From a virus: 58,478 bases of DNA. Positions 4,651 through 58,475 of the stretch are shown here, one piece after another. The notes under the pieces were generated by a model, which ran no database searches, was not told where the DNA came from, and saw only the letters and a program-made list of their open reading frames with translations. Within the stretch, counting starts at the first letter, position 1. Every line of letters begins with the position of its first letter. Made by a program: the position numbers and the translations under genes. The stretch is from positions 1 to 58,478 of IMG/VR virus record IMGVR_UViG_3300046010_007871; one strand, written 5' to 3'.

Positions 4651-5132
4651 CCGTGCCCTACTTGTCCGATCTCGACGTGTGCGTGCAGTTGACCAGGCCC
4701 ACGGGCACGCTGCCAGAGCGAGCCACCGATGGCGCCAGCGGCTACGACCTGCGCATGGCCGGATGGCGCTGGCCATGGTCGCAGGAGGTGCAGCACGGGC
4801 ACCTAATCCTCGACGCAGGCGAGCGAGCGCTAGTGCTCACCGGCCTCGCCATGTCGCTCTCGGAGGGCTGGGAGGCGCAGATCCGTGGGCGTAGCGGGCT
4901 CGCGCTAAAGCACGGGCTACAGGTCGCCTTCGGCACGATCGACAGCGACTATCGAGGCGAGGTAGGCGTGATCGTCTACAACGTCGGCGACCGCATCACG
5001 CTTCGGCCTGGCGACCGCATCGCGCAGATGGTGTTCGCTCGCGTGCCTCGCGTGCGGCTGCTCGAGGTGGCAGAGCTCACGAGCACCACCAACCGCGGCG
5101 TCGGTGGCTTCGGCTCCACGGGGCAGTCGTGA
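4647..5132 (+). CDS. dut: dUTP diphosphatase (trimeric dUTPase)
   Basis: The 161-aa protein contains the five trimeric dUTPase motifs: ATDGASGYDLR (motif I), IRGRSGLALKHG (II), FGTIDSDYRGEVGVIVYN (III, with the catalytic Asp), RPGDRIAQMVF (IV) and the C-terminal NRGVGGFGSTG (V). The length is normal. It hydrolyses dUTP to dUMP and pyrophosphate, keeping uracil out of phage DNA and supplying dUMP to the ThyX-like enzyme encoded at 7146-7961. Both ends overlap the neighbours (ATGA and GTGA). Confidence 0.95.
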   Translation: MTVPYLSDLDVCVQLTRPTGTLPERATDGASGYDLRMAGWRWPWSQEVQHGHLILDAGERALVLTGLAMSLSEGWEAQIRGRSGLALKHGLQVAFGTIDSDYRGEVGVIVYNVGDRITLRPGDRIAQMVFARVPRVRLLEVAELTSTTNRGVGGFGSTGQS

Positions 5133-5374
5133 CAACCTACGCTCGCATGATGCGAGATCTACTCGGAACCGAAAAGCGCCCAACTCGACGACAAGGATCC
5201 ATGACGCCCACCCACGACGAGGAGATGGCCCACGAGCGCGCCTACTGGCACGAGCGCATCGTCGAGGCCCTGCAGCGCGTGCGTCAACTCGACGCCGACC
5301 TGACAGCCGCGCGCGACGACAACAAGCGGCTCGTGGCCGAGCTGCGCGAGCTGCGCGAAAGGCTGCCCAGATGA
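5129..5374 (+). CDS. hypothetical coiled-coil protein, 81 aa
   Basis: It starts at a GTG overlapping the dUTPase stop (GTGA) and ends overlapping the methyltransferase ATG (ATGA). The C-terminal half (about residues 40-80) is a heptad-like helix with LQRVRQLDADLTAARDDNKR and further LRELRERLP, so a coiled coil is likely. No enzymatic motif is present. It may be an accessory to the methyltransferase, but this rests on position alone. Confidence 0.55.
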   Translation: MTTYARMMRDLLGTEKRPTRRQGSMTPTHDEEMAHERAYWHERIVEALQRVRQLDADLTAARDDNKRLVAELRELRERLPR

Positions 5375-7146
5375 TCCAGCTGCACCACGGAGACTGTCTA
5401 GACGTGCTCCGCACCATGCCAGACGCCAGCGTCGACGCCATCGTGACCGACCCTCCGTACGGCCTGCGCTTCATGGGGAAGAAGTGGGATTACGACGTGC
5501 CCACGACAGAGGTGTGGGCCGAGTGCCTGCGGGTGCTCAAGCCTGGCGGGCACCTGCTCGCGTTCGCAGGCACCAGGACGCAGCACCGGATGGCGGTGCG
5601 GATTGAGGATGCAGGGTTCGAGATTAGAGATCTGATCATGTATTGCTACGGGTCAGGATTTCCAAAAAGTACAGACATATCGCGGCGCATTGATTTAGAA
5701 GAGCAAAAAAGATGGCTTGACGTTTCCAAGGCGCTTGACAACTTGGAAACTGCGGCCATAATGGAAGCATGGAAAGACCACTCAAAAGCTGCGAGCACTG
5801 CGGGGCTCTCATTCGCAAAGAGCCCAACCGCAACTGGAATCAGTACGCCAAAAAGCGGTTTTGCTCCCGAGCCTGTTCTGCTGCAAGCCGATCAAGAAAG
5901 CAGCGATGCACTTGCGCTGGTTGCGGAGTTGAGTTTCAAAGAAGCCCATCTCACGTCCAAAGCGGAGATCAATTCTGCTCCCATGCCTGCCGCCGCAAAC
6001 GAATCACAAGACCCTGTGAAGTGTGCGGAACACTCACTGAAAAGATCCAATGCAATATCTACGAACGCTGGTATTGCTCAATGCGCTGTCAAGGAATGGC
6101 CAAGCGCAAGCATGGGGGGCAATCTCAAGGCCGTCGAAGCCCTGAGGATCTGGCTTGGAAGCAAGCCGTCATCAATGCAGGCAGTTACAAATGCGCTATG
6201 TGCGGTACTGACCGCCGACTTGAAGCACATCACGTTAAGCCAATCAAAGACTTTCCAGAGCTTCGACACGACACGTCAAACGGCTTGTGCGTCTGCCATC
6301 AGTGTCACTATTACGGAATCCATGGCGGAAAGCCTAATCTCATTCACGGTCGATACGCTAAGAAAACAAGCGATTGACCGGGCGGCAGGAGCGGAGCGGG
6401 AAGTCACCGCCCCCGCCACCGACGCCGCTCGCCGATGGCAAGGCTGGGGCACCGCGCTCAAGCCCGCCCTGGAGCCGATCACCGTGGCCCGCAAGCCCCT
6501 GGAGGGCACCGTGGCCGCCAACGTGCTGCAGTGGGGAACTGGTGGGATCAACGTGGACGGGTGCAGAGTGGGCACCGACCTCATCACCCAGCACGGGCGA
6601 GGAGACAGCGCGAATATTGCTATGTCTGGGCGAAACTACGCTGAAGAAGCTGGGCGCAAGTGGACCGGTCGCTGGCCCGCCAACCTGATCCATGACGGCA
6701 GCGAGGAGGTGGTGGGGTTGTTTCCGCAGGGACGCAGTAGTGGTATATATTCTCCGACTGACCACTCTCAAGGCAAACGTGCAAAATGGGTAATAAACTT
6801 CGGCGGAATGGGGGTCCCCTCTGTTATGTATTCCGACAGCGGCAGCGCCGCCCGCTTCTTCTACACCGCAAAGGCCGATGCGACAGACCGAAACGATGGG
6901 CTCTCACCAGGCGAACGCAATAAGCACCCAACGGTCAAGCCGGTTGACCTGATGTGCTACTTGTGCCGACTCGTGACGCCGCCAGGTGGCATCGTGCTCG
7001 ACCCATTCATGGGCAGTGGCAGCACCGGCAAGGCATGCGTGACTGAGGGGTTCAGCTTCATCGGAATCGAGCGAGACGCCGACAGTTTCGCCACCGCGCA
7101 AGCGCGCGTGGTATCGCCGATGCCACTGTTCAAGGATGTGCTGTGA
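5371..7146 (+). CDS. DNA N6-A/N4-C methyltransferase (beta class) with 228-codon in-frame insert
   Basis: The 591-aa frame is a phage-type site-specific DNA methyltransferase. Near the N-terminus is DAIVTDPPYGL (catalytic DPPY at 27-30); near the C-terminus NKHPTVKPVDLM and IVLDPFMGSGSTG (SAM-binding FxGxG). This motif order is beta class. Residues 109-336 are an insert of exactly 684 bases (5694-6377) bounded by ATTGA on both sides. Removing it restores a continuous SRRID-RAAGAEREV junction. The insert stays open in this frame although it encodes an HNH endonuclease in another. Without it the enzyme would be 363 aa, a usual size. ATG 5371 overlaps the previous stop. Whether the insert-bearing enzyme is active cannot be seen. 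Confidence 0.85.
   Translation: MIQLHHGDCLDVLRTMPDASVDAIVTDPPYGLRFMGKKWDYDVPTTEVWAECLRVLKPGGHLLAFAGTRTQHRMAVRIEDAGFEIRDLIMYCYGSGFPKSTDISRRIDLEEQKRWLDVSKALDNLETAAIMEAWKDHSKAASTAGLSFAKSPTATGISTPKSGFAPEPVLLQADQESSDALALVAELSFKEAHLTSKAEINSAPMPAAANESQDPVKCAEHSLKRSNAISTNAGIAQCAVKEWPSASMGGNLKAVEALRIWLGSKPSSMQAVTNALCAVLTADLKHITLSQSKTFQSFDTTRQTACASAISVTITESMAESLISFTVDTLRKQAIDRAAGAEREVTAPATDAARRWQGWGTALKPALEPITVARKPLEGTVAANVLQWGTGGINVDGCRVGTDLITQHGRGDSANIAMSGRNYAEEAGRKWTGRWPANLIHDGSEEVVGLFPQGRSSGIYSPTDHSQGKRAKWVINFGGMGVPSVMYSDSGSAARFFYTAKADATDRNDGLSPGERNKHPTVKPVDLMCYLCRLVTPPGGIVLDPFMGSGSTGKACVTEGFSFIGIERDADSFATAQARVVSPMPLFKDVL
5694..6377 (+). mobile_element. HNH-endonuclease insertion inside the methyltransferase gene
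   Basis: A 684-base segment (228 codons, frame-preserving) with visibly lower GC than its flanks interrupts the methyltransferase. ATTGA occurs at both borders (5689-5693 and 6373-6377), like a small target duplication or insertion-site homology. The segment has only about 75 bases ahead of the HNH start and none after its stop, too little for a group I or II intron core. A perfect 9-bp inverted repeat, GTTTCCAAG (5722-5730) and CTTGGAAAC (5742-5750), lies just ahead of the HNH start. Confidence 0.75.
5769..6377 (+). CDS. HNH homing-type endonuclease with three zinc-finger repeats, nested in alternative frame
   Basis: This 202-aa protein carries three CxxC..CxxxC zinc ribbons (about residues 8-36, 47-74 and 83-107) followed by an HNH nuclease core: CAMCGTDRRLEAHHVKPI (142-159), then NGLCVCHQCHYYGIH (171-185). 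The HH..C..C arrangement is typical of phage HNH endonucleases that spread by cutting DNA. It is read in a different frame from the surrounding methyltransferase over its whole length. Its TGA stop is formed by the ATTGA at the right border. No strong ribosome binding site is seen; in-frame stops just upstream fix ATG 5769 as the start. Confidence 0.85.
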   Translation: MERPLKSCEHCGALIRKEPNRNWNQYAKKRFCSRACSAASRSRKQRCTCAGCGVEFQRSPSHVQSGDQFCSHACRRKRITRPCEVCGTLTEKIQCNIYERWYCSMRCQGMAKRKHGGQSQGRRSPEDLAWKQAVINAGSYKCAMCGTDRRLEAHHVKPIKDFPELRHDTSNGLCVCHQCHYYGIHGGKPNLIHGRYAKKTSD

Positions 7147-42112: not shown

Positions 42113-42460
42113 CTAATCATGAGCAACCGCGTCGAGTGTAGGGCTCGACTCCACGCTATCTACCACGCTCGCGAACATCTGCGCCAGTCGAGTGTTGCGA
42201 GCGTAGGCATTTCGCTCGATCCCATGTGCTCGCCCCATGCACACGCACCGGCAGATGTTGCACGCGGCTGCCTTGCAGCGCTTGCCGCATGCGTGAGGCG
42301 AAGCCACTGGCGACACATACACCACGCGCAGCCACCGCAAACACCTCGAGCACGTGCGCCCAAAGCCAGGAAGCGGCAGCTGCAAGCCGTCGCATGGCGT
42401 GGCGTCGTCGAGCTCGGTCACCACGAGCTGGCACGCGTCGCAGTGGCCAACGAGCTTCAA
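42113..42460 (-). CDS. Cys-rich putative zinc-binding protein, 115 aa
   Basis: ATG 42460 overlaps the previous stop (ATGA), so the gene belongs to the IbrAB-like group. Cysteines occur as HCDAC, TCSRC and CNICRC with several single Cys and His between, enough for two zinc sites. The C-terminal 40 residues are helical. No family recognised. It is the last gene before the terminase. Confidence 0.5.
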   Translation of the reverse strand: MKLVGHCDACQLVVTELDDATPCDGLQLPLPGFGRTCSRCLRWLRVVYVSPVASPHACGKRCKAAACNICRCVCMGRAHGIERNAYARNTRLAQMFASVVDSVESSPTLDAVAHD

Positions 42461-43044
42461 TCCTGCACCATCTCCCAGGCTGACGAGTATGCGCTATTCG
42501 CGAACAGCGCTGCCACGCCAGCCACCTGCTTATATCGGTGCACGGCGTCGAGCTCCATGCCGAGTCGTTGCGCCACTTCTTGCTCGGTCAATCCTTGCTC
42601 GATGAGCGAGCGCACCACGTCTGCGTCGAGGTCAATCGCGTGCACCCCTCGAGCCTTGTTGAACTGGACGGTCGCTGCCATCCGCTTCGTCATATCGTGC
42701 GAGAGCACCACGACAGGCAAGTAGTCGAAGTCCAAGAACTCGTCGCTACCGATGCGCGATCGGTGGAAGCCATCAATGATGACAAACACCCCGTCAGCAT
42801 CATCCCAGATGGTGACGATCGGAAAGCAGAATCCGTTGTCCAGCACGCTTTGCTGTAGTAGCTCCATCTTGTCGGAGCTGACCGCGTTGGGGTTGTATGT
42901 GTTCGCTACGACCAGTTCTCTTTTTACGAGCAGCGTGTTGGCGCATGGCACAAGCACCTGGCCTCGGGTGCGGCTCTGAATGTACACCGGCTGCATCTGT
43001 GCTCGCTCGGCTAGAAAGTCTTGCATTGTATCTATGCGCTTCAT
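42457..43044 (-). CDS. ParB/Srx-like protein (IbrB-like)
   Basis: The 195-aa protein has a ParB-type N-terminal domain: VVANTYNPNAVSSDKMELLQ (55-75 region), QSVLDNGFCFPIVTIWDD and VFVIIDGFHRSRIG, the usual N...s..l..sI...G...Pi.v....IidG.HR pattern. A C-terminal helix-turn-helix (LTEQEVAQRLGMELDAVHRY) follows. It starts at the stop of the IbrA-like gene (TGATG), and this PP-loop/ParB pairing mirrors the IbrA/IbrB pair. ParB-fold proteins bind CTP or act as nucleases or kinases; the activity here is unknown. Confidence 0.7.
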   Translation of the reverse strand: MKRIDTMQDFLAERAQMQPVYIQSRTRGQVLVPCANTLLVKRELVVANTYNPNAVSSDKMELLQQSVLDNGFCFPIVTIWDDADGVFVIIDGFHRSRIGSDEFLDFDYLPVVVLSHDMTKRMAATVQFNKARGVHAIDLDADVVRSLIEQGLTEQEVAQRLGMELDAVHRYKQVAGVAALFANSAYSSAWEMVQD

Positions 43045-44204
43045 CACATCACCCCTTCGTAGTACGCCAGCAAGCTCTCCCGGTGCACTTGCCACGGGTC
43101 TGGCTTGTTATCGATCGGCAGGTTGTTTTCGTAGTCATTGAGCACCAGTTGTCGGCACTGCTGGCGCGCAACGTATTCGTTTTGTAGTTGAGCCTCAAAG
43201 CGCGCCTCAAAGATTGGTCGCCGCGCTTGGTCAAGATGTGTGGCTAGCAACAAATTGCGATAAGCTGTCCACGTCTTGTGAGCCTTCGGCAGCTTGGTGC
43301 ACTTGAGCATCTTGGCTGCCTTGCCTGTCTCTTGGGCAAGGGCGATGCCCTTGATGCGCTTCAGCAATCGCTCGTAGGTCTTTGGCTCAAACTCGGGGAG
43401 GTCGGCAATCGACTTGAAAGCGCGCTCGTGAATCAACGACGAGATGCGCATCTGCGTCGGATAGACGCCCTTCTTGTGCATGTGGTCATAGACTTTATGA
43501 TATTGCAACTTCTCGTCGTGGATGTATCTCCACACGTCCGAGACGTCCCAGTCGAATACTGGGTAAAGCGTCCAGTTTCTGCCTCGCTTGCTGCCCCAAT
43601 AGACTTGTTGCCCACCGATGGTAACTGGATGGTCTACAACGGCGCGCCATCGGTTAAGCGACTCGCCCTTGGCACGCAAGCCCACGAGCCACGCCGTGTG
43701 ATCGTAGCATCGCTCGAAGTTCTGAATGACGCCGTAAAAGTCGAGCCTCTTGCAACCTGAGCGAAATCGCTCTTGGGCTTCTGGCCATGGCTTGTGCTTG
43801 ATGGTGCCAGGCGCGTTGCGCTTCTTGCGCATCCATCGCGCGCTCTCGCCTGGCGCCCACGCTTGCAGCTCGGCCTCGCTTACGCTGGTAGCGTTGGTCA
43901 GCGTGAACGGCACCTGCAGCCACAGCGGCGTGGTGTTTTCTGGGTAGAGCTGCATCATGTACTCCACCTGTTCGATGGTGGACTGATACATCGCCTCCTC
44001 GTCAAGGAAAAACAAACCGATGCGTCGATTGCGTCTGTTTGCTTCCACGAGTGCAAGATGAGCCAGCACGGTGCTGTCTTTGCCACCGCTGATGGAGCAG
44101 ATAATCTGCTTGATGTGTCCCAGCTCTACCTGGTCAAACAGCCAGGAGATGCGTCGCCTTGCGGCTGCTAGTACGGTCTCACCGGTCAAGATTTTGCGCG
44201 GCAT
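43044..44204 (-). CDS. PP-loop ATP-pyrophosphatase, PAPS-reductase family with DUF3440-type C-terminus (IbrA-like)
   Basis: The 386-aa protein has the PP-loop IICSISGGKDSTVLAHLALV (SGGKDS at 39-44), then RIGLFFLDEEAMYQSTIEQV as in PAPS-reductase-like enzymes, and WTLYPVFDWDVSDVWRYIHD, a segment typical of IbrA/DUF3440 proteins. PP-loop enzymes adenylate a substrate, often before sulfur transfer; DndC in phosphorothioate DNA modification is a relative. Directly paired with a ParB-like gene. Biosynthetic sulfate reduction is unlikely in a phage; nucleic-acid modification is a reasonable inference. Confidence 0.75.
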   Translation of the reverse strand: MPRKILTGETVLAAARRRISWLFDQVELGHIKQIICSISGGKDSTVLAHLALVEANRRNRRIGLFFLDEEAMYQSTIEQVEYMMQLYPENTTPLWLQVPFTLTNATSVSEAELQAWAPGESARWMRKKRNAPGTIKHKPWPEAQERFRSGCKRLDFYGVIQNFERCYDHTAWLVGLRAKGESLNRWRAVVDHPVTIGGQQVYWGSKRGRNWTLYPVFDWDVSDVWRYIHDEKLQYHKVYDHMHKKGVYPTQMRISSLIHERAFKSIADLPEFEPKTYERLLKRIKGIALAQETGKAAKMLKCTKLPKAHKTWTAYRNLLLATHLDQARRPIFEARFEAQLQNEYVARQQCRQLVLNDYENNLPIDNKPDPWQVHRESLLAYYEGVM

Positions 44205-45084
44205 CGTTCACCCTCTGCGCCCATGCGCTCCAGCGGTCCCAGTACCAGGTGTCCGCTTTTGTGTCGGCTACCATCACTGGCAGCCGCTCTTGCTCTGTGA
44301 CCGTCAAGAAGTCGGTCATCTCGAGGTGATTGTGAGGCAACTCTAGCGCGATTCGTTCGCCTTGGCTAGTCACTTCTCGGTAGCTAGTCACGTCTGGCAA
44401 ACGCAGGCGCTGGTTCCTGGCGACGTACCGCAGCAAGGGGTTGGCTTGCGCCGCCTTGTCCTTGCCGGTCACCAGGGCAAGTGACCTCGGGATAATGTGC
44501 GGGTCCTTGTCTGGATCGTTGCGCACCTGCTCAAAGAGCTTGACTCTTTCCGCGGCGTAGAGCTCATGCGTGCGTCGACTCATCTGCACGTCGATTCGCT
44601 CAAGATGTAGTGGTCGCCTGATCACTTGCAGATCGACCTCCTCGAGCATCGATCTGTCGTAGCCTCGGTCGAACCACCTCGAGTTGGTCTCCCAGTCTAG
44701 GAGCGTCATGACGTCGTCGGGTTGCTCGATCAACGGGTATCGCTGGAAGATAGCCCGATGCTGCAGGTTGTGAAGGAACGTGCGCACGCAGTTGTTTTCG
44801 AGACACTTTCGTTCTCGGCCTCGCAGGCACTCGTTGAACACCAGCAGCGTGCGGTCTGCTGGCATCTGCAGGATGCGATAGTAAAACCGATACGCAATGA
44901 CGTCGGGCCAGTGCAGGAACGTGCCAGGCTCGTTTAGGTCGTCCGGCTGCACGACTCGACGCCGAGCGAACGACGGCGCCAGCTGCTCTGGAGATATGAC
45001 ACAAACGCGGTCAAGGCCATGCGCGGCACAGTAGTCGCGAACAGCCTTAGTCTTGCCCGCATCGTCAAGACCGATACGAATCAT
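44179..45084 (-). CDS. putative P-loop (Walker A) protein, 301 aa
   Basis: The protein starts MIRIGLDDAGKTKAVRDYCA, a perfect Walker A (GxxxxGKT, residues 5-12). A possible Walker B, RTLLVFNECLRGRE, occurs near residue 85, and cysteines follow. The rest shows DWETNSRWFDRGYDRSMLEE and a helical C-terminus with ADTKADTWYWDRWSAWAQRV. No family recognised. ATG 45084 overlaps the stop of a 71-aa gene whose product shares the same N-terminal 30 residues in degenerate form. Just upstream of the IbrA-like gene, which it overlaps by 26 bases. Confidence 0.6.
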   Translation of the reverse strand: MIRIGLDDAGKTKAVRDYCAAHGLDRVCVISPEQLAPSFARRRVVQPDDLNEPGTFLHWPDVIAYRFYYRILQMPADRTLLVFNECLRGRERKCLENNCVRTFLHNLQHRAIFQRYPLIEQPDDVMTLLDWETNSRWFDRGYDRSMLEEVDLQVIRRPLHLERIDVQMSRRTHELYAAERVKLFEQVRNDPDKDPHIIPRSLALVTGKDKAAQANPLLRYVARNQRLRLPDVTSYREVTSQGERIALELPHNHLEMTDFLTVTEQERLPVMVADTKADTWYWDRWSAWAQRVNDAAQNLDR

Positions 45085-45296
45085 CTGTGAGCCTTTCTCA
45101 GCCACGTCAGCGTGACCTCGAGGGTCGCCGGATCGGTCATGTGCTCGGCTGCCCATGACGGCGCGAAGCGCGAAGGCGAGAGGACGTAGACCTTCTTGAT
45201 CTCGTGCTCCTCGCGGTAGCGCGTGACAATCTCGCCCTTTGCGGTGTCGTCGAGCCCCAGGTGAATCACGGCATTGGCTCTCGGCGCATGAACCAT
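45081..45296 (-). CDS. short degenerate paralogue of the Walker-A protein, 71 aa
   Basis: The segment VIHLGLDDTAKGEIVTRYRE followed by KKVYVLSPSRFAPSW parallels IRIGLDDAGKTKAV and DRVCVISPEQLAPSF of the next gene product. The Walker A is lost (AKG instead of GKT), so nucleotide binding is unlikely. It could be a regulatory subunit competing with or pairing with the full-length protein, or a decaying duplicate. The frame is intact and coupled (ATGA), which favours a functional protein. Confidence 0.55.
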   Translation of the reverse strand: MVHAPRANAVIHLGLDDTAKGEIVTRYREEHEIKKVYVLSPSRFAPSWAAEHMTDPATLEVTLTWLRKAHR

Positions 45297-45625
45297 CCAC
45301 CGTTGCCGCGGCGCCAGTTCACGAATCCTGTCCGCTCGTGAAGCCTGCGCGATGCCGGGTTTGAGTCCGAGACGAAGGCGCAGAAACGCACGCTAGGCCG
45401 CGCCCGGTAGTAGGCCGTCACGAGCCCGCGCCCGCGGTACTCTGGCAAGACGAAGATTGGTCCGAGGCGATGCCCCCAGCGGTGCTCATGCGGCGTCACA
45501 AACCCGACCACGCGCCCGTCGCAGACGAGCGGGTCTCTCGCGTCGGCCCGTCGCACGAAGCCACGGACCTCGTAGGTCCTGTTGGCCTGTCGCAGCATCT
45601 CTATCGGCACTTCGAGCGCAGCCAT
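45266..45625 (-). CDS. GNAT-family acetyltransferase, 119 aa
   Basis: The protein shows the GNAT core: LGPIFVLPEYRGRGLVTAYY (54-73) with the R-G-x-G acetyl-CoA loop, then VSDSNPASRRLHERTGFVNW (the N..s..lye..GF motif). ATG 45625 follows an AAAGGA site. It overlaps both the upstream methyltransferase (25 bases) and the downstream 71-aa gene. The substrate is unknown; company with a methyltransferase and PP-loop gene hints at base or protein modification. Confidence 0.7.
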   Translation of the reverse strand: MAALEVPIEMLRQANRTYEVRGFVRRADARDPLVCDGRVVGFVTPHEHRWGHRLGPIFVLPEYRGRGLVTAYYRARPSVRFCAFVSDSNPASRRLHERTGFVNWRRGNGGWFMRREPMP

Positions 45626-46242
45626 GTTGCCGTCCTTTCGAGGCGCGTCGCGTTCATCTCGGTGCCGCGAAACGACGCACCGAGCTTGTGTGCCCACCTG
45701 GCCGTCATGCCGAGCCCCGTGCATGGGTCGAGGACGAGGTGGTTTGGCTGCACGCAACAGGAGAGAACATGCTTGGTTACCGGCTCGCCGTGAGGCACTT
45801 CGGGCCAGTCTCGGTCAATCTCTTGCGTCAGCATGTGCAGGCGAGGCATGGCCTCTGCCCGACCGAACAGGTTGAGCGTGACCGGCAAGGGCTTGCTCTT
45901 CGGGCCGTACGTCATCATCCATTGGCGCACGTGCTCAAAGCCATGCGCTGCCATGGTCTCCGAGAGCTGGTCAGCCCACCGGCATCCCATCTCGATGAAC
46001 ACAGGCGCCTCTGGTTTGGTGTGCGCCATGGCAACGCCTGCGAAGGCGTCGAGGAACTTTTCCCATGACGTGCGCGGAGCAGAGCCTCGCTCGCGCATCG
46101 TGTGCCAGTATTGCTGATTCCCAGGCCCCCACGGTGGGTCGCTGTAGAGCACGTCCGCGAGCTCTGCGCCCATGAGCTGCGAGACCGCAGCGGTCGTAAT
46201 GTCGCCCACCATGAGGGCGTGCGTGCCGATTTGAATCTTCAT
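45601..46242 (-). CDS. DNA methyltransferase, DPPW type (beta-class order), 213 aa
   Basis: The protein has the catalytic motif DVLYSDPPWGPGNQQYW (DPPW at 35-38) and a C-terminal SAM site, HLVLDPCTGLGMTARWAHKL, then FRGTEMNATRLERT, in beta-class order. It is short and lacks an obvious target-recognition domain, which suggests either low specificity or a partner subunit. ATG 46242 overlaps the preceding small gene (ATGA). N6-adenine or N4-cytosine in DNA is the likely target; RNA cannot be excluded. Confidence 0.72.
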   Translation of the reverse strand: MKIQIGTHALMVGDITTAAVSQLMGAELADVLYSDPPWGPGNQQYWHTMRERGSAPRTSWEKFLDAFAGVAMAHTKPEAPVFIEMGCRWADQLSETMAAHGFEHVRQWMMTYGPKSKPLPVTLNLFGRAEAMPRLHMLTQEIDRDWPEVPHGEPVTKHVLSCCVQPNHLVLDPCTGLGMTARWAHKLGASFRGTEMNATRLERTATWLRSKCR

Positions 46243-46475
46243 CGGTCCTTTGCGATCTGGTATGCGAGCTCGCGCACCTGCGTCGCACTGAGGTTGCGCC
46301 AGAAGGTACCGGCGCTCGACATATGTGGATTCTTGTTGCAGAAGATTCTAGCCTGGCGAGCCAGGGCGGCGCGACGCGACGAGCTGAGGTTGCGGAAGGC
46401 GACGACCGATTGGTTGCTCCAGTCGGCGTGGAGGTGCGCGGCTAGGATGTTGTCCATGTCTTGAAGCTGTTTCAT
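46239..46475 (-). CDS. small basic helical protein, tandem paralogue B, 78 aa
   Basis: It shares with the upstream 61-aa protein the core VVAFRNLSSSRRAAL.RQAR, I.CN.NPHM.SAG, and LSATQVRELAYQIAK. It has an extra N-terminal stretch (MKQLQDMDNILAAHLHADWS). DNA of the two genes is almost identical over a 45-base stretch (about 46362-46406 and 46600-46644), so the duplication is recent. Function unknown. Confidence 0.6.
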   Translation of the reverse strand: MKQLQDMDNILAAHLHADWSNQSVVAFRNLSSSRRAALARQARIFCNKNPHMSSAGTFWRNLSATQVRELAYQIAKDR

Positions 46476-46478
46476 CGG

Positions 46479-46664
46479 TCAGCCCTTTGCGATCTGGTAT
46501 GCCAGCTCGCGCACCTGGGTGGCGCTCAGGCCTTGCCACCACTTACCCGCGCTCGCCATGTGCGGGTTTTGGTTGCAGTAGATGCGAGCCTGTCGCGACA
46601 GGGCGGCGCGGCGCGACGAGCTGAGGTTGCGGAAGGCGACGACCGAGGGGTTGTTGTTGTCCAT
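46479..46664 (-). CDS. small basic helical protein, tandem paralogue A, 61 aa
   Basis: First gene after the CRISPR-like operon, transcribed from its own promoter with the ATG exactly where transcription should start. The product (MDNNNPSVVAFRNLSSSRRA, then LSRQARIYCNQNPHM) is small, basic and helical. No known family. Position beside the type IV-B module makes it a candidate accessory or regulator, without direct evidence. Confidence 0.6.
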   Translation of the reverse strand: MDNNNPSVVAFRNLSSSRRAALSRQARIYCNQNPHMASAGKWWQGLSATQVRELAYQIAKG

Positions 46665-46670
46665 GCCCAG

Positions 46671-46699
46671 ACAATAGCGCTAGACCTCTCGCGTGTCAA
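46671..46699 (-). promoter_or_regulatory. leaderless promoter for the accessory block
   Basis: On the minus strand TTGACA (46699-46694), 17 bases, TATTGT (46676-46671), then six bases to the ATG at 46664. The predicted start of transcription is the A of the ATG. GCGCTATTGT is shared with promoter modules 1 and 4. It lies 18 bases after the cysH stop. Confidence 0.6.
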
Positions 46700-46716: not shown

Positions 46717-47520
46717 TTAGCTGACGGTGTCGAGGGCTGGCATGAAGTCGCGCCACAGGCGGTGCAGGCTGGGGTAGTAGTGCCGCAGCCATGCGGCATG
46801 GGTACGGCTACGCCCGCACACCCACCAGCTCTTGCGCACGGTCCACGGCGCATCTCGGTGTATGTACCCGATGCAGCGGTAGAGGGGCAGCAGGGGCACC
46901 TCGCGCGAATGCACGTATGCCAACACGTCGAGGCCCGACCACCACGCTAGCGGGTGGGCATGCACCCTGCCACACTTGAGGCGCGCGACTGGGCCAGCGG
47001 TAGAGAGGCGCATCATGCGGGCGTCGTTCTCTTGCGCTCGCAGCCCCATCATGACGCACCCGTAGGCTGCGCTGGCTCGGTCAACGAGGTCGTAGAACAC
47101 CACACGCGACAGGCCAGCGGAGCGCGAGTGCAGGTCCTGGTCGACCTCGCGCATGTGCTCGCGCAGGTAGTCGAGCGCCGAGACATCTGGGCGTAGCACC
47201 TCGAGCTGTGCGCCCCAGCTGACGGCGAGCTCGCGCACGAACGCCTCTTCGCCTGGGTAGTCTAGGTCGTCCTTCTGCGAGATAAGCGGCACGTGTGTGA
47301 GGCCCAGCTCGTGCACGACGAGATGCGCGAGGCAGGTGGAGTCCTTGCCAGCCGACCACATGACACACGCGCGCGGCTCCAGCTCTAGCGCCTCGAGCAC
47401 GTAGCGCTTGGCTTGCGTTACGCGGCGCTGGAAGCCTGGCGAGCGCGCATGCACGTCGCACACGCGCCGCCAGTAGTCCCACGCCTCATGGTCCTCGCGA
47501 CGTAGGACGGGCTCTATCAC
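46717..47520 (-). CDS. cysH: CysH-like PP-loop protein of the type IV-B CRISPR module
   Basis: The 267-aa protein belongs to the PAPS-reductase/PP-loop family: CVMWSAGKDSTCLAHLVVHE (SAGKDST at 56-62), then THVPLISQKDDLDYPGEEAF and a C-terminal Trp/His-rich region with cysteines. CysH-like genes are the known companion of type IV-B CRISPR-Cas loci, where their role is unresolved. GTG 47520 overlaps the csf3 stop (GTGA), making it the fifth gene of the operon. It is only distantly similar to the second PP-loop protein encoded at 43044-44204. Confidence 0.8.
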   Translation of the reverse strand: MIEPVLRREDHEAWDYWRRVCDVHARSPGFQRRVTQAKRYVLEALELEPRACVMWSAGKDSTCLAHLVVHELGLTHVPLISQKDDLDYPGEEAFVRELAVSWGAQLEVLRPDVSALDYLREHMREVDQDLHSRSAGLSRVVFYDLVDRASAAYGCVMMGLRAQENDARMMRLSTAGPVARLKCGRVHAHPLAWWSGLDVLAYVHSREVPLLPLYRCIGYIHRDAPWTVRKSWWVCGRSRTHAAWLRHYYPSLHRLWRDFMPALDTVS

Positions 47521-48191
47521 TGTCGGATGGCCTCTGCAGGCACGGCGATCGGCACTTCTAGCCACCTGGTCCAGTAGGGGTAGGTGAGCGTGCCTTGGCT
47601 GAGCTGCGCCTGGTCCGAGAGGCCAGGATAGTCGGCTGGCAGGTTGCGCATCGGCATGCCATCTCGCAGCACTGGGAAGCCAGGCCACAGCTCGTCGTCG
47701 CGCATCTCACGCACGGCCCACGCGATGACTCGCCCGCATCCGGTCGAGCGCTTCTTGCCCACGTACGAGATGAGCTGCAGCAACCGCCACACCTCGTCTC
47801 GGTCGCCGACGCACCACCAGGTCATGCGGTCACCTGCAGCGTGAAACGTGCGCAGAGGCAGCCGATACGAGCGAGCCGCGCCTGCATCGATGCGATACGA
47901 CCGAAACCGTTGCTCTCCCAGTGCTTGCGCCTCTTGCTGCGGGAAGCGTCGGTTGATCCACCGCTGCTCTGACTCCTCCACCTCGCAGTGTCCGACGCTG
48001 GCGAGGTGAAAGCGTCGCGAGTCATGCCATGCGACTGGGATGTCGACATGCCTTAGCTCGGTCTCTAACGGGGCGTTGTAGATGCCCTGCTCCATGGCGA
48101 CGGCTGCGGCGAGCAGCCCATCGAGTGCGAGCGGTCCGTTTGGCAGCGCTACGGCGCCTCGGAGCGTTGCGACGACCTCGAGCGCCCTCAC
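47517..48191 (-). CDS. csf3: Csf3/Cas5-like subunit, type IV-B CRISPR-Cas
   Basis: The 224-aa protein fits Csf3 (Cas5-group RAMP): VVATLRGAVALPNGPLALDG (6-25) with the LDG-LLA-A motif at the first strand and helix, HDSRRFHLASVGHCE (56-70), and the RAMP glycine loop SYVGKKRSTGCGRVIAW (142-158). Cas5 subunits cap the 5' end of the guide RNA and contact Cas7. GTG 48191 overlaps the csf2 stop (GTGA). Length is typical. Without Cas6 in the window, how guides would be made is unclear. Confidence 0.8.
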   Translation of the reverse strand: MRALEVVATLRGAVALPNGPLALDGLLAAAVAMEQGIYNAPLETELRHVDIPVAWHDSRRFHLASVGHCEVEESEQRWINRRFPQQEAQALGEQRFRSYRIDAGAARSYRLPLRTFHAAGDRMTWWCVGDRDEVWRLLQLISYVGKKRSTGCGRVIAWAVREMRDDELWPGFPVLRDGMPMRNLPADYPGLSDQAQLSQGTLTYPYWTRWLEVPIAVPAEAIRQ

Positions 48192-49201
48192 GCTTCCACC
48201 TGTCCGAGGAAGCTTCGGATTTCGGTCTTGCGCTCTGCGACGTGCGCGCGGAAGAGCTCGCCCACGCGCGGCGCTAGCTCAGTTGGTGCGATGGGCAACA
48301 GCGTATCGGCGGGTCTCGCCAGCTCGATGTCCCACGCCTTGACCGGGCGCACCTCACCATGCCCTGTGCCTCGCTTGCCACCGACGCGAGCGCGAGACAG
48401 GAAGCCCACCGCGGCCAGCCGGAACGTGTCGAGCGCGAGCGCGCTGTAGACCGTGGCCTGGCACCCCCAGTAGAGGAGTGACCCTTGCGCAATGCGCTCG
48501 TATCGGCGCGGCATCATGGCGCTCTTGCTCCTGCCTCGTGCGACGGCGTCGTCGCTCTCGCTAGCCGCTTCGCTGTCTGCGAGCTTGCCGAGCAGCTTGA
48601 CCTGGTCCTCGCCAGTCGTGAGCTCACGCAGCGATGGCCGTAGCATCGGGTCCATGCGCACGCGCTGCACCTCCTCGACGTGCTCGCGCGCGGTGGCGAT
48701 ATGCGCGCCGGTCTCGCGCACGTACGCCATGACGTGCTCGGGCACGAAGCGCGCCGTCTCGTCGCAGATGACCGTGGCATCGTCCACCTCGAGCATGCCT
48801 GGGATCATGCGGTTCTGTGCGCATCCTCCGAACAGCTCAAGCGCTGGCACGAGCTCGCACAGCTTGCGGTACTCGTCGAGGCGCACGACGGCACCATCCG
48901 AGCCGCGGCCCTTGATCATGCCGCCCGCAAATAGCAGGCGCAGCGCGGCCTCGTTCAGCGTGTTGCGCTCGAGCAGCCCCGCGGCGTCGAGAAACATGTA
49001 CGCCGCAGCCTCGCGCATGCCGTGGCGCATCGTGTCGGCGGTCACGATGGGCACGAGCGAGAATCGGCCATCGGCGCGGCGCACCTTGCGGCGCATGATG
49101 ACGGCCTCGTTTCCGATGGACTCGGCGTGGTGCGCGATGGGCTGTGCAGCCTCGAGCACGAAGTCGTAGCGGTGGCGTTGCATGCTGGTCTTGTCAGACA
49201 T
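48188..49201 (-). CDS. csf2: Csf2/Cas7-like backbone subunit, type IV-B CRISPR-Cas
   Basis: The 337-aa protein follows the Csf2 pattern: FVLEAAQPIAHHAESIGNEA (14-33), a basic strand IMRRKVRRADG, then VPIVTADTMRHGMREAAAY (50-68; the vP...g..lRg..R motif), LLFAGGMIKGRGSDG (89-103), LELFGGCAQNRMIPGMLEVD (121-140) and a C-terminal glycine loop ARVGGKRGTGHGEVR. Cas7 proteins polymerise along guide RNA. ATG 49201 overlaps the cas11-like stop. Together with Csf1 and Csf3 this gives a complete type IV effector set. Confidence 0.82.
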   Translation of the reverse strand: MSDKTSMQRHRYDFVLEAAQPIAHHAESIGNEAVIMRRKVRRADGRFSLVPIVTADTMRHGMREAAAYMFLDAAGLLERNTLNEAALRLLFAGGMIKGRGSDGAVVRLDEYRKLCELVPALELFGGCAQNRMIPGMLEVDDATVICDETARFVPEHVMAYVRETGAHIATAREHVEEVQRVRMDPMLRPSLRELTTGEDQVKLLGKLADSEAASESDDAVARGRSKSAMMPRRYERIAQGSLLYWGCQATVYSALALDTFRLAAVGFLSRARVGGKRGTGHGEVRPVKAWDIELARPADTLLPIAPTELAPRVGELFRAHVAERKTEIRSFLGQVEA

Positions 49202-49592
49202 CGTCAATCTCCCCTTCGTGTGCCCTGCGTTCCTCTGCGCGCGTCTCGGTGATGAGTCGCGCCATGGCCATGAGTAGCCCCGTTTCTCGCTCGACGAGGT
49301 CGAGCACTTCGCGGTCGCCGTGGTCGCGTGCGACCTTCGACAGATCCCACAGCGTTTGCGCGCCCAGCTTGTCGAGCGTCGTGGGCAGCTGCAGCCCGCG
49401 CAGTACCGCCGTGGTCCACTCGTCGACCGTGCCGCAGCGTCGAGCTGCACTCAAGATGCGCCCCTGTAGCTGCTCCCAGTGCTTGAGCACTACCGCGGCG
49501 CCATAGGTGCGCAAGTAACGGCGGCGCGCTGCGAGGATAAACTCAACCAGCGCGGTGCGCGCCTTGTCTGCGTGTTGTTCGCCTAGACTCAC
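49194..49592 (-). CDS. Cas11-like small helical subunit
   Basis: This 132-aa all-helical protein (DKARTALVEFILAARRRYLR; GAAVVLKHWEQLQGRILSAA; LVERETGLLMAMARLITETR) lies between csf1 and csf2, where type IV-B loci carry cas11. Small-subunit sequences diverge too far for a direct motif call, so this rests on size, helicity and position. GTG 49592 with AAGGGG eight bases upstream is preferred; it overlaps the end of csf1 by 50 bases. ATG 49613 is the longer alternative. Confidence 0.65.
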   Translation of the reverse strand: MSLGEQHADKARTALVEFILAARRRYLRTYGAAVVLKHWEQLQGRILSAARRCGTVDEWTTAVLRGLQLPTTLDKLGAQTLWDLSKVARDHGDREVLDLVERETGLLMAMARLITETRAEERRAHEGEIDDV

Positions 49593-50466
49593 TGCGTTTC
49601 CCCTTCTCTTCAATCATGCGCGCGGCGACGGTCTCCTCGTCGCGTTGCGCGAGCCACAGACAGAGCGCAAACCACGCGAGCGACCTCGCGTATCTCCAGT
49701 CGCGCTCGAAGTGTTCGATGCGCTCACGGCATCGCTGGTATGCGTGCGAGGTGTACGCGCCGCGCTGAATCTCCTCTTTGGTGGCGCCCGCGGTCAGGAG
49801 CTCGGTCGTGTCGCCGACCAGGCCCCAGAGCCGAGACGACGCCGGTGGGATGAACACCTCGGACTCCTCGAAGCGCACGCGCCCGCTGCCTCGGCGCATG
49901 TTGATGGGCGTGTATGGCAGCACGTGCCTTTGGCCTGTGTCGGAGATGGCGGCAAACCATGTGCAGGGCTCAAGCGGGCTCGACGTTGCCATGCGGCGCA
50001 AGAAGGCCAGGATCTTGGGCTTCTCTCCCTTGGTTGCGTTGTCGAGCGTGTGCCCGTCGTACAGGTGCGTGAAGTTGCTCCACCTGCCTGCGCTTTCCTT
50101 GCGGCACGTGCCGTCGCACTTGGCGCATGGCTGCCCAGGCTCGCGGTGCCCTCGGTTGCCTTTGCGAGCCTGCGCTTGCGATGGCTCGACGCCGGTGCCG
50201 TTGCATCGATCGCACGGCTTTGGCTCTCGGCCCACGACTGGCGAAAACCGAGCGCGCACGTACACGCATGCCTCGCATACGTGGTCCGAGTGCGGCGAGC
50301 AAAACGACGTCTGGTCAGTCAGCGATGAGCCGATAAACTCCCACACGAGTTTGCCGCGCGTGCTCTCACCACCGCACACCGCGCACGGCTCTGCCTCGTG
50401 TGCGGCGCAGCCCTCGACGGCAGGTCGACCAACGTAGGCATGCGCGAGCTGCGAGGCCGAGATCAT
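49543..50466 (-). CDS. csf1: Csf1-like large-subunit-type protein, type IV-B CRISPR-Cas
   Basis: The 307-aa protein has the Csf1 zinc finger PCAVCGGESTRGKLVWEF with Cys28, Cys31, then HVCEACVYVRA with Cys64, Cys67. A second cysteine cluster (CDRCNGTG at 85-92 and CAKCDGTC at 114-121) resembles a DnaJ-type zinc finger and seems to be an addition. The C-terminal half has TWFAAISDTGQRHVLPYTPI and a final helical region with Trp residues. ATG 50466 overlaps the previous stop (ATGA), coupling the CRISPR-like operon to the replication genes. Confidence 0.75.
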   Translation of the reverse strand: MISASQLAHAYVGRPAVEGCAAHEAEPCAVCGGESTRGKLVWEFIGSSLTDQTSFCSPHSDHVCEACVYVRARFSPVVGREPKPCDRCNGTGVEPSQAQARKGNRGHREPGQPCAKCDGTCRKESAGRWSNFTHLYDGHTLDNATKGEKPKILAFLRRMATSSPLEPCTWFAAISDTGQRHVLPYTPINMRRGSGRVRFEESEVFIPPASSRLWGLVGDTTELLTAGATKEEIQRGAYTSHAYQRCRERIEHFERDWRYARSLAWFALCLWLAQRDEETVAARMIEEKGKRSESRRTTRRQGAHRAG

Positions 50467-53682: not shown

Positions 53683-55068
53683 TCATGGATGGTCGGACGG
53701 GTCGAGGTTGTCGAAGCGCGTAGAGTGCCCGGTCCAGCGCAGGGGCACCTTGCCGGTGCTCCCTGCACGGTGCTTGGCGACGATGACCTCGGCCATGTTG
53801 GTCTTGGGCTTGTCGTCGCCGGTCGAGTAGTAGTCCTCGCGATAAATAAAGATCACGTTGTCGGCGTCCTGCTCGATGGCGCCGGATTCGCGGAGGTCGG
53901 AGAGAAGCGGGCGCTTGTCGGCTCGGGACTCGACGGAGCGAGAGAGCTGGGAGAGGGCGAGCACGGCGACGTGGAACTCTTTGGCGATGGCCTTGAGGTC
54001 GCGGGAGATGGAGGAGATCTCCTGCTCGCGCGAGTCGCCGCGGCCTGTGACGAGCTGCAGGTAGTCGACCACGACTAGGCCGAGCTCGCGGCCTGCGGTG
54101 ATGGCGTCGCGCTGCTGGCGTCGGACGCGGCTGCGGATCTCGGCGGTGCTGATGGTGCCGCGGTCGTCGATCCACAGGCGCAGCTTGGACATGTCCGAGG
54201 CGCTTTCGACTAGCGACTGGTAGTCATGGCTGGTGCATCGCCCTACCTGCACGAGCTGGCTGTTGACGCTCGCGTCGGTGCAGTTGATGCGCAGGGCGAT
54301 CTGGTCGGCTGGCATCTCGAGCGAGAACACGAGCGTGTCGAGGCCAGCGCGGGCGCAGGCGAGGGCGTGCTGCATGGCCAGGGAGGTCTTGCCCATGCCG
54401 GGGCGAGCCGCGAGCACGGTGAGGGTGGAGGGGGCGTAGCCGCCGCTGAGCACGGTGTCGAGGTCGGTGTGGCCGGTGGCGACGCGGTTGGTGGCGCGAC
54501 CGTTGTTGCGCGCGGCCTCGATCTCGCTCCAGGCGGCGTGAAGGTGCGCGGCTAGGCTGTCGTCGGTGCGCTCGGTGTTGTTGTCGGCGATCTGCGCGAC
54601 GCGCTGCGCCGCGTTGGACATCCACTCGGGCACGTTCGGCACGTCGCCGTAGCCCTCGGCCACGAGGCGCTGGCACTCGAGCACGAGTAGGCGTCGGCTG
54701 TGGAGGTCGCGCACGATGCGCGCATGGTCCTCGGCGTGGGCCACTGCGGGCGTGGCGTCGAGGATCTGGATGATGTACGCGGCGCCTCCGACCTCGTTCA
54801 GCTGGTCTTTAGCCTGTAGCCGCGACGCGACGGCGATGCTGTCGATCTGCTGCCGCGCTTGGTCAATCTCGAGCAACGACTCGTAGATGCGCTGGTTTGC
54901 CCACGAGAAGAACATCTCGGGCTTGGGCAGGATATGCAGCACCGAGTCGAGCCGCGCCGGGTCGAGGATGATGGCCGAGAGCACCGCCGCCTCGGCGTCG
55001 AGGTCGCTCGGTGGCATGCGCCCAGCGATGCGCAGGATCGTGGCTGGCTTCTGCTCACGAGGCTTCAC
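53683..55068 (-). CDS. dnaB: replicative DNA helicase, DnaB family
   Basis: The 461-aa protein is a full DnaB: N-terminal domain (PPSDLDAEAAVLSAIILDPA; EVGGAAYIIQILDATPAVAH), Walker A VLAARPGMGKTSLAMQ (218-233), FSLEMPADQI (motif H1a), LGLVVVDYLQLVTG (Walker B), VLALSQLSRSVESRADKRPL (H3) and LRESGAIEQDADNVIFIYRE (H4). It unwinds the phage replication fork and recruits host primase and polymerase. It overlaps the initiator gene by 14 bases, so the two are co-expressed. No loader gene of DnaC type is seen; the initiator may load it. Confidence 0.96.
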   Translation of the reverse strand: MKPREQKPATILRIAGRMPPSDLDAEAAVLSAIILDPARLDSVLHILPKPEMFFSWANQRIYESLLEIDQARQQIDSIAVASRLQAKDQLNEVGGAAYIIQILDATPAVAHAEDHARIVRDLHSRRLLVLECQRLVAEGYGDVPNVPEWMSNAAQRVAQIADNNTERTDDSLAAHLHAAWSEIEAARNNGRATNRVATGHTDLDTVLSGGYAPSTLTVLAARPGMGKTSLAMQHALACARAGLDTLVFSLEMPADQIALRINCTDASVNSQLVQVGRCTSHDYQSLVESASDMSKLRLWIDDRGTISTAEIRSRVRRQQRDAITAGRELGLVVVDYLQLVTGRGDSREQEISSISRDLKAIAKEFHVAVLALSQLSRSVESRADKRPLLSDLRESGAIEQDADNVIFIYREDYYSTGDDKPKTNMAEVIVAKHRAGSTGKVPLRWTGHSTRFDNLDPSDHP

Positions 55069-56266
55069 TGGCTACCACCTTGGCCGTTGCTGGGCCGCTA
55101 AGGGGGCGCGGCGAGGCTTTGTCGCCGCTCTGGGATGGTAGGGGCCACGGCATGCCCTCGGCCCATCCTGCGGCCACCATGGCGGGGAGAGGCCAAGGCT
55201 GTAGAGGGGTCCATCCGCAGGCCTTGCGAAACCGGAACATCTCCTCGGTCCGCTGGCGCTCCTCCTCCGTGAGCGTGTCGGGCACGATGCCCACGGTCTT
55301 GGTCGTGATGGGCCGCGGCTCGGCAGCTGCGAGGCCAGGCCTGCCAGTGCGAGCGGGTAGGCTCTGGGCCATGTCGGCCTCGCTGGCGCGCTGGGCAAAG
55401 GCCAGGATCGACTTGTTCGTGGTGGCGGCGTTGTAGCTACTCGCAGCCGCTAGGTCGAGCGCGCGGCGCACGGCGGCGATGACGTGCGCGGGCTTCTTGG
55501 CGTCGGCGTGGAATGCCAACCGCTGCGCTAGCTCCTGGGCGTTGGTGCCAGTGAGGCCCTGGTAGTACCGGTCGGCCTCGAGCAGCCTTCGGAGCTCTGC
55601 CTCCAGGTCGCCCGCCTGCCCGCCCGCCTTCTGCGCTGGTTGCGGCTCTGGCTTGGGTTCTGGCGGAGGAGCCTCGCGCGCCTGCGCACGTGCGTGCGCA
55701 CGCGAAGAGGCGACGGGCTGGCTAGGATCTAATTTCTCTCTCTCTGTCTGTCTCTCTTCTGTTTCTCTCTGTCTCTCTATCTCTCTCTCTTTTGTGGACA
55801 TGCTCGGGACATCTTGGGACATGGCTGGGACATGGCTGGGACGTGCTCGAGTGATTTTGTCCCGAGCACCACTCGTGCCTGGGACATGCTCGGGACATGG
55901 CTGGGACATGGCTGGGACATGGCCTTCGCGCTTGCGCTCTCGCTGATCTTGCTTCCGAGCCGTCTCATTCCACGAACTGCTTTGCTGTTCTGCGTGCTCT
56001 GGAAGCATCAGCAATCCATCTTGCATCATGACCAGCTCGGCTTCGATTAGCTCATCCATGGCTGGTTGGATAACGTCGAGACGAGCTCCGAACACGTTAG
56101 CCAGGCCTCGCAGTCCGAACTTGCCAAGCGCAACGGATGCTTGTCTGCCAGCTGCGCGTTGCAAATGCAGGTACAAGCTTCTTGCATCATAGCTAAGCGC
56201 TTTCCAGGTCATGGATTCATGCAGAAAGACCTTGATGAAGCGTTCTCGATCCCACTGGTTCGCCAT
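55055..56266 (-). CDS. phage replication initiator (O-like/DnaD-like) with iteron-encoded linker
   Basis: The 403-aa protein has an N-terminal winged-helix-type region (NQWDRERFIKVFLHESMTWK; SLYLHLQRAAGRQASVALGK; MDELIEAELVMMQDGLLMLP) like replisome organisers. A repetitive linker (HVPAMSQ, PCPEHVPG units) is encoded by 11-bp DNA repeats, then a charged KEREIERQRETEERQ run. The C-terminal half has a helical domain (ELAQRLAFHADAKKPAHVIA) and Trp/Pro-rich end that could touch DnaB, encoded next. An initiator gene containing iterons and followed by a helicase gene matches lambda O/P and similar systems. Confidence 0.72.
   Translation of the reverse strand: MANQWDRERFIKVFLHESMTWKALSYDARSLYLHLQRAAGRQASVALGKFGLRGLANVFGARLDVIQPAMDELIEAELVMMQDGLLMLPEHAEQQSSSWNETARKQDQRERKREGHVPAMSQPCPEHVPGTSGARDKITRARPSHVPAMSQDVPSMSTKEREIERQRETEERQTEREKLDPSQPVASSRAHARAQAREAPPPEPKPEPQPAQKAGGQAGDLEAELRRLLEADRYYQGLTGTNAQELAQRLAFHADAKKPAHVIAAVRRALDLAAASSYNAATTNKSILAFAQRASEADMAQSLPARTGRPGLAAAEPRPITTKTVGIVPDTLTEEERQRTEEMFRFRKACGWTPLQPWPLPAMVAAGWAEGMPWPLPSQSGDKASPRPLSGPATAKVVASEAS
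55731..55794. repeat. polypyrimidine/polypurine tract beside iterons
   Basis: About 64 bases of nearly pure CT on the plus strand (CTCTCTCTGT and TCTCTCTATC units), encoding the Lys/Glu/Arg-rich stretch of the initiator on the other strand. Lower melting stability and possible triplex formation make it a candidate unwinding element of the origin. Confidence 0.5.
55795..55924. repeat. phased 11-bp iterons, candidate replication origin
   Basis: Nine direct copies of GGGACATGGCT-like 11-mers begin at 55795, 55806, 55816, 55827, 55838, then 55881, 55892, 55903 and 55914; one inverted copy lies at 55859-55869. Spacing is 10-11 bp within each cluster, one helical turn, so an initiator bound to them would sit on one face. 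The repeats lie inside the initiator gene, as in lambda O, next to a CT tract. Confidence 0.65.
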
Positions 56267-57891: not shown

Positions 57892-58382
57892 GCTGCCACG
57901 ACCACGATGTACTTGGCGCCGCCCTTTACGCCTTCGAGCTTGAGCTTGCCCGCCTCGACGAGGTCGCCGAGAGCTCGCGTGGCGTGCGGCGGCGGGCACG
58001 CGAAGAGGTCGATCACCTTGCTGCGCGTGAACGTGGTGGCGAGCTGGCTATCGCGCACGGCGTCCATGATGCGCACCCCGAGCACGTCGGTGATCTTGCC
58101 ACCGCTTGGCTTGGGTGCGCGTGGCGCGCGCGAAGCAGGCTTTGCGACAGCCACAGGCTTCGCCTCATGTTTTACGATGGGCGATGGTGCGGCATCCATG
58201 GTGCGCAGACTCGCAAGCGCAACCTCGATCGCCTCCTCCAGCTTGGCGCATCGCTCGTGGAGCGTCGCGAGCTCGCGTTCGTGCTCGACGATGCGATCGC
58301 GCTGCAGAATGATTGTGTCCTCGCACTTGGTCAGCGCGCGGTCGAGTTCGTCGATGGTGATGGTCGGTTCGTTCGTGCTCAT
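57888..58382 (-). CDS. coiled-coil plus winged-helix-like protein, 164 aa
   Basis: The N-terminal half is a coiled coil (RALTKCEDTIILQRDRIVEH; ELATLHERCAKLEEAIEVAL), a Pro/Ala/Lys linker follows, and the C-terminal part has a winged-helix look (TFTRSKVIDLFACPPPHATR, ALGDLVEAGKLKLEGVKGG). It is probably a DNA-binding dimer. ATG 58382 overlaps the RuvC-like stop across the circular junction (seen also at 30-33). Early leftward operon. Confidence 0.6.
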   Translation of the reverse strand: MSTNEPTITIDELDRALTKCEDTIILQRDRIVEHERELATLHERCAKLEEAIEVALASLRTMDAAPSPIVKHEAKPVAVAKPASRAPRAPKPSGGKITDVLGVRIMDAVRDSQLATTFTRSKVIDLFACPPPHATRALGDLVEAGKLKLEGVKGGAKYIVVVAA

Positions 58383-58475
58383 GTGTTCCCTGTCCCTTTG
58401 CTGAGCCGCCTCATGTAGAAAACCGCAGCGAGGGCAGCGTCTCGCGTGTGGCTGTTGTCTGCGCCCCTCGGCATG
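58350..58475. repeat. terminal direct repeat, right copy
   Basis: Identical to 1-126. After it the last three bases (CTC) differ from positions 127-129 (GTG) at two sites, probably an assembly-end artefact or variant. Past the ATG of the gene at 58382 the repeat runs into the 3' end of the RuvC-like gene. Confidence 0.9.

Follow-up and report, generated by a model that had tools for sequence, protein, structure and literature searches.

A phage type IV-B CRISPR-Cas operon adjoins an exchangeable IbrA/IbrB cassette with a possible role in nucleic-acid modification

In the 58,478-base IMG/VR virus record IMGVR_UViG_3300046010_007871 (the window, meaning the whole stretch analysed), we found that a complete type IV-B CRISPR-Cas set (csf1, cas11, csf2, csf3 and cysH; 46717-50466) lies directly upstream of, and on the same strand as, a cassette encoding a small methyltransferase (MT), a GNAT protein, a shrunken SNF2-like protein that we call X, and an IbrA/IbrB-like pair. 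Unrelated viruses also join operon and cassette, with many different arrangements of the genes, and the two may therefore make up a combined system that has not been described. We put at about even the chance that the region is a single phage-borne system, a type IV-B effector operon with an exchangeable nucleic-acid-modification cassette (MT-GNAT-X-IbrA-IbrB). The argument for coupling is genomic, and for the chemistry and biological role of the cassette we offer a proposal. Type IV-B systems have neither array nor nuclease and carry an enigmatic PP-loop partner, CysH, and their role is a puzzle. The recurrent junction of phage type IV-B genes with a PP-loop/ParB/methyltransferase cassette, or with a radical-SAM protein, gives that puzzle a concrete and testable proposal, nucleic-acid modification, and it gives the long-orphaned pair IbrA/IbrB a place in a defined multi-gene unit.

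The cassette and the type IV-B operon

An earlier note on this DNA, made from its letters alone, had described six leftward genes at 42457-46242, each overlapping the next, with an IbrA/IbrB-like pair among them. All six minus-strand open reading frames (ORFs) are open there with these overlaps, and the pair holds up, as adjacent genes encode a PP-loop protein matching PF01507 and DUF3440 and a ParB-like protein matching phrog_2159. The block does not stop at 46242, where the note had closed it, and continues through two short ORFs and a promoter into the type IV-B operon. The features, all on the minus strand, are as follows.

49543-50466: csf1, type IV large-subunit/Cas8-like (TIGR03114, 6e-7; PDLC01721, 4.6e-16)
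49194-49613: cas11-like small subunit, start nearer 49591 likely (PDLC01697, 5e-6; PDLC01695, 2.6e-5)
48188-49201: csf2, type IV Cas7 (PDLC01724, 1.6e-39; TIGR03115, 6.5e-12)
47517-48191: csf3, type IV Cas5 (PDLC01727, 1.8e-36; TIGR03116, 1.6e-11)
46717-47520: cysH-like PP-loop protein, GTG start overlapping the csf3 stop (PF01507, 1.3e-9)
46671-46699: sigma70-like promoter TTGACA-N17-TATTGT, between cysH and the cassette (1 match against 0.02 expected)
46479-46664: 61-aa ORF directly before the MT, tandem paralogue of the 78-aa ORF (82% identity over 175 nt)
46239-46475: 78-aa ORF, paralogue of the 61-aa ORF, overlapping the MT start
45601-46242: small putative amino-methyltransferase, MT (PF01555, N6_N4_Mtase, 8e-6, weak; DPPWxxGN then DxCxGxG, the beta-class order)
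45266-45625: GNAT acetyltransferase-like protein (PF00583, 2.5e-6)
45081-45269: 62-codon ORF, a recombination scar that retains the N-terminal part of a second X allele (its DNA is 95-96% identical to the beginning of full-length X in relatives G003 and G005)
44179-45084: X, predicted miniature SNF2/SF2-fold protein with degenerate P-loop (AlphaFold pLDDT 88; Foldseek PDB E 1e-8)
43044-44204: IbrA-like PP-loop protein (PF01507, PAPS_reduct, 2e-13; DUF3440, 2e-7)
42457-43044: IbrB-like ParB/Srx protein (DGFHR) with a C-terminal HTH-like part (phrog_2159, 1.8e-44; Noc/ParB in the PDB)

The type IV-B core, with its CysH-like gene, was recognized by PADLOC, TIGR and Pfam models; the TIGR scores lie under the NCBI equivalog cut-offs and the PADLOC matches are strong. 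The CysH-like protein aligns with CysH from other phage type IV-B loci and is without a conserved Cys column, and the window has two PP-loop genes, this one and the separate IbrA-like gene. Repeat scans of the window gave no array-like repeat, and a two-repeat mini-array could escape them; near csf genes there was no convincing CRISPR array, only a few periodic repeats that were mostly multiples of 3. The DinG-type helicase domain PF13307 was not found in the record, with a model that was positive in 10 of 14 controls. Of the two short paralogous ORFs, the second shares a 39-nt stretch with the DnaB-like helicase gene (near 54526).

A conserved cassette is repeatedly linked to type IV-B genes

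A single-sequence viral scan with X gave no match, and an alignment query was needed to find loci. This query found 40 IMG/VR loci and 3 loci among 84,980 GTDB genomes. No X turned up in plasmids or isolated phages at the sensitivity used. In every X-family locus with enough sequence, the X, PP-loop and ParB genes are contiguous, and the MT adjoins them in nearly all. The earlier note had named genes scattered singly in related phages as the observation that would count against it; this is not what we see, because the genes form a conserved unit. The X-IbrA-IbrB unit, usually with the MT and sometimes with GNAT, occurs in some 30 lineages, almost all of them viral, and a GNAT homologue stands in the same order (MT-GNAT-X-PP-ParB) in loci L032/L037 and L047.

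When X sequences were clustered at 70% identity (n = 30), csf2 was close by in 12 clusters, where the cassette lay next to or within a type IV-B operon. Two of these 12 come from the phage group of the window itself, so the linked clusters represent 11 independent phage groups. At least seven gene orders combine cassette and operon, among them csf1-csf2-csf3-X-PP-ParB-MT-cysH (L054, L073), csf2-X-PP-ParB-MT-cysH-csf3 (L041), csf1-X-PP-ParB-MT-cysH-csf2-csf3 (L042), csf2-csf1-cysH-MT-GNAT-X-PP-ParB-csf3 (L047), csf1-csf2-cysH-X-PP-ParB-GNAT-MT (L063) and csf1-csf2-csf3-MT-X-PP-ParB-cysH (L070, and L055 likewise plus GNAT). Several csf/cassette junctions overlap by a few bases: csf3 ends at 10004 and the X match starts at 10001 in L054, cysH ends at 10004 and X starts at 10001 in L063, and the MT ends at 4074 and cysH starts at 4071 in L042. 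For individual linked loci, PADLOC bore out the type IV Cas7 assignment, and of 38 whole contigs searched with a curated csf2 model 9 were positive, all of them previously seen as linked. As a background, a csf2 query and a cysH query each matched one of 50,697 isolated-phage records, in both cases Skermania phage SPI1; this was a single-sequence tblastn search that misses divergent members, so the true csf2 rate in isolated phages is higher. The linkage in 12 of 30 clusters is far above this csf2 background.

Linkage of this kind could also arise if the operon and the cassette were two independent accessory modules of unrelated function that insert at the same phage hot spots close to the terminase, which we hold to be possible at distinctly less than even chances. 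Several loci do lie near terminase genes, the modules can be separated in the window, where a promoter stands between them, and in L059, where they are convergent on opposite strands, and each module is found without the other. Some of this weighs directly against a single system: no csf2 was present on the contig in 18 of the 30 X clusters, so the cassette can work without type IV-B, and in a csf2-led reverse scan, which reached a single csf2 branch, 22 of 25 phage type IV-B loci had no X cassette (the other three were the query contigs), so phage type IV-B often works without it. The promoter-like site of the window belongs to the cassette itself, and the family match of the MT is weak. What two unrelated modules explain poorly is the gene-by-gene interleaving with short overlaps in L041, L042, L047, L054, L063, L070 and L073, and a linkage repeatedly gained or lost against a very low csf2 background in phages. 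The linkage state changes at least five times on the csf2 tree and about eight times on the X tree, where three changes are forced by well-supported branches.

In L041, L045, L047, L059, L063, L111 and L113, the csf2 ORF is 410-502 aa long with a long N-terminal extension. The extension matches Cas11 models in L063, L111 and L113, which suggests Cas11-Csf2 fusions.

Cassette alleles are exchanged among near-identical phages

In four relatives of the window phage, csf2 is 97-100% identical to that of the window. Compared with G003 and G005, only the X-PP-ParB genes of the window differ (exchanged segment 42450-45080, 44-70% identity); the drop to this level, with 75% in one bin, spans about 42,450-45,050, and the flanks are mostly 84-100% identical. 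The swapped unit has a GC content of 56-59%, compared to 64% for the genome. In G004 (58 kb), whose genome is largely 88-94% identical to the window, a larger segment (42448-46662) is replaced outright, and G004 and G006 carry ParB-X259-PP-loop-glucosyltransferase-like-209aa in its place, X259 being the counterpart of X in a second cassette class. The two classes are thus found at one and the same site in phages that are otherwise near-identical, and these phages supply natural allele swaps with which the modification proposal can be tested. The 62-codon ORF, which had been taken for a degenerate Walker-A paralogue, corresponds to the first part of the 312-aa X from the close relative G005 and is what recombination left of the old X allele at the breakpoint.

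X is predicted to be a miniature SNF2-like protein with a degenerate ATPase site

The AlphaFold model of X (pLDDT 88, pTM 0.84) has two RecA-like domains of SNF2 type and matches SNF2-family ATPases over its full length (VIA-align Z 18.5, 293 of 301 residues, rmsd 3.5; Foldseek PDB E 1e-8), although at about 300 residues X has about two thirds of their size. The earlier note had called X a Walker-A protein; the window copy does contain GxxxxGKT, but only G5 and K11 are conserved among 41 relatives. The family has no S/T after the P-loop lysine and NEC replaces DExH in most of the 41 sequences, and a Walker-A NTPase was rejected as a feature of the family. Because GK[ST] is lost and NEC stands where DExH is expected, X would be expected to bind nucleic acid with weak or no ATP hydrolysis. 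An RNxR motif is invariant in the family and could stand for motif VI.

In L032/L037, L011 and L030, cassettes without type IV-B lie downstream of an apparent full-length SNF2-type helicase, possibly the ancestor of X. L032/L037 have two PP-ParB pairs in tandem.

The partner genes point to a possible role in nucleic-acid modification

The SGGKDS signature is invariant in 45 relatives of the IbrA-like PP-loop protein, and no cysteine is: the best Cys column holds in 76% of the sequences. This makes DndC-like sulfur transfer, the analogy drawn in the earlier note, unlikely, and we regard Dnd-type phosphorothioation of phage DNA as scarcely credible. The protein does have a weak similarity to DndC (PDLC02661, 2e-4; TIGR03183, 0.0017), but this match is one segment, far under the cut-off, and no DndD/E-like gene was seen in the block. 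With no cysteine invariant among the 45 relatives, sulfur chemistry of the Dnd type was rejected, and an argument of this kind has likewise been put forward for type IV-B CysH proteins (PMC8175902).

The MT resembles MboIIA and CcrM in a PDB sequence search, and its motif IV DPPW and motif I-like DxCxGxG are near invariant in 41 relatives; by these motifs it would be of the DNA adenine methyltransferase type, with DNA as its putative substrate. The DNA methyltransferase family phrog_498 matches both the ParB-like protein and the MT, at different positions, and the GNAT assignment is sound. In G004 and the unrelated L013, a glucosyltransferase-like protein (phrog_854) replaces the MT beside the PP-loop and ParB genes. 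The PP-loop signature, the likeness of the MT to MboIIA/CcrM and the glucosyltransferase-like partner together suggest that the cassette modifies a base or the backbone of DNA or RNA. A role in nucleic-acid modification or anti-defence, as the earlier note had proposed, is still the best reading.

Small-molecule substrates are also known for both the PP-loop and the ParB/Srx folds, and the cassette might instead serve exclusion or anti-defence at the level of small molecules or NTPs, with IbrA and the ParB/Srx protein acting on free nucleotides or a nucleotide signal and X sensing infecting DNA. Rapid allele exchange would fit exclusion specificity, but the DNA-methyltransferase-like motifs, the SNF2-like fold of X and the linkage to a ribonucleoprotein all indicate nucleic acids, and we think this unlikely. 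For the ParB/Srx fold the small-molecule points are made in PMC12839542. A role in regulating prophage genes, like that suggested for the IbrA/IbrB of E. coli, which are annotated as prophage gene expression coactivators, is very improbable for this cassette, since it leaves the conserved SGGKDS, DGFHR and DPPW motifs, the near-obligate partners and the type IV-B linkage unexplained.

If operon and cassette do form one system, the Csf proteins would assemble a ribonucleoprotein on short RNAs of non-array origin, with which the cassette would act on nucleic acid. IbrA would adenylate a nucleic-acid position and install a group other than cysteine-bound sulfur, with IbrB as its ATP-using, DNA-contacting partner, while X, perhaps without hydrolysing ATP, would hold duplex nucleic acid. 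The MT, which has little room for a target-recognition domain of its own, and the GNAT protein may trim or cap the added group. Most probably the system would serve to mark phage DNA, or the nucleic acid of a competitor or the host, during infection, for protection or competition, and allele exchange at the locus would change the mark and allow escape from recognition by the host or a rival phage.

Phage type IV-B operons have other partners

X259-PP-ParB cassettes also occur in viruses other than G004 and G006. Apart from these two, where X259 is also linked to type IV-B, L111 and L113 have such a cassette within a type IV-B locus, and in L095, whose contig ends after the cassette, it adjoins one. 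The two cassette classes therefore share the habit of linkage. The X259 structure model (pLDDT 59) is too low in confidence for fold comparison.

In five phage type IV-B loci without X (L089, L092, L098, L104 and L105), a radical-SAM protein adjoins the csf genes. No cysH was seen in the read stretches of these loci (L089 is a short contig), and in four of the five it is absent after a complete flank or altogether; L098 and L104 have a second radical-SAM-like protein, which is B12-binding. Such partners would fit a phage type IV-B with interchangeable nucleic-acid-directed chemistry. More broadly, phage type IV-B might be an RNA-loaded platform that recruits exchangeable modifiers (CysH, IbrA/IbrB with X or X259, methyltransferase, GNAT, glucosyltransferase-like and radical-SAM proteins) for RNA-guided modification rather than cleavage or a transcription block, an idea that we consider speculative and rather doubtful.

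An HD-domain protein lies between csf3 and cysH in L097 (9582-10091, Pfam match tested) and L099 (9740-10258). The cultured Skermania phage SPI1 (KR011061.1, 33743-36242; L110) has apparent csf2, csf3 and cysH genes, all annotated as hypothetical, and is a possible experimental model for phage type IV-B.

Relation to known systems

We found no description of the type IV-B and IbrA/IbrB combination, nor, as the earlier note had stated for its block, any described counterpart of the composition, in the searchable literature, which leaves many subscription papers outside its reach. Like described type IV-B systems (PMC7937560, PMC8175902), the window has csf1, cas11, csf2, csf3 and cysH on a mobile element, with array and DinG-type domain not found. 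Described systems carry CysH, some with a RecD homologue (PMC11656645), and the available literature treats type IV-B as CysH-associated and of unsettled function. In contrast to the window, no IbrA/IbrB, SNF2-like and methyltransferase cassette was found for them in the literature, nor in two plasmid type IV-B loci that we examined. Viral type IV-B of Fuxiviridae (PMC10848311) and of SPI1 (KR011061) resembles that of the window in having virus-borne csf genes with cysH adjoining. No cassette was found in a 17-kb stretch of SPI1 or is reported in the accessible part of the Fuxivirus paper (PMC10848311), and Fuxivirus has a mini-array that was not seen in the window.

The IbrA/IbrB pairs of E. 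coli and of Flavobacterium and Streptococcus phages likewise consist of adjoining PP-loop DUF3440 and ParB-like proteins; unlike them, the cassette pair is fixed with X or X259, usually with an MT and often with type IV-B. Dnd phosphorothioation (DndC/DndB) also pairs a PP-loop enzyme with a ParB-superfamily protein, but the cassette lacks the conserved cysteine and has other partners. BREX type 4 and Dpd (PMC12839542) use a PP-loop or ParB-like ATPase with methyltransferase or helicase-like parts for DNA marking; PglZ, BrxC, DpdA and other signature genes were not identified here, without a systematic search.

Other features of the phage record

A direct repeat of 126 bases stands at both ends of the record (1-126 and 58350-58475), which is therefore likely to be a whole phage genome; among its genes are those for a terminase, a DnaB helicase and SSB. 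An Rfam search of the window found no RNA family, and a nucleotide search of isolated-phage records with the block gave no match. A larger, second DNA methyltransferase is encoded on the plus strand at 5104-7146 (N6_N4_Mtase, 2e-27), and short tandem TGGGACATGGC repeats with a period of 11 bases lie within a coding region at 55813-55932.

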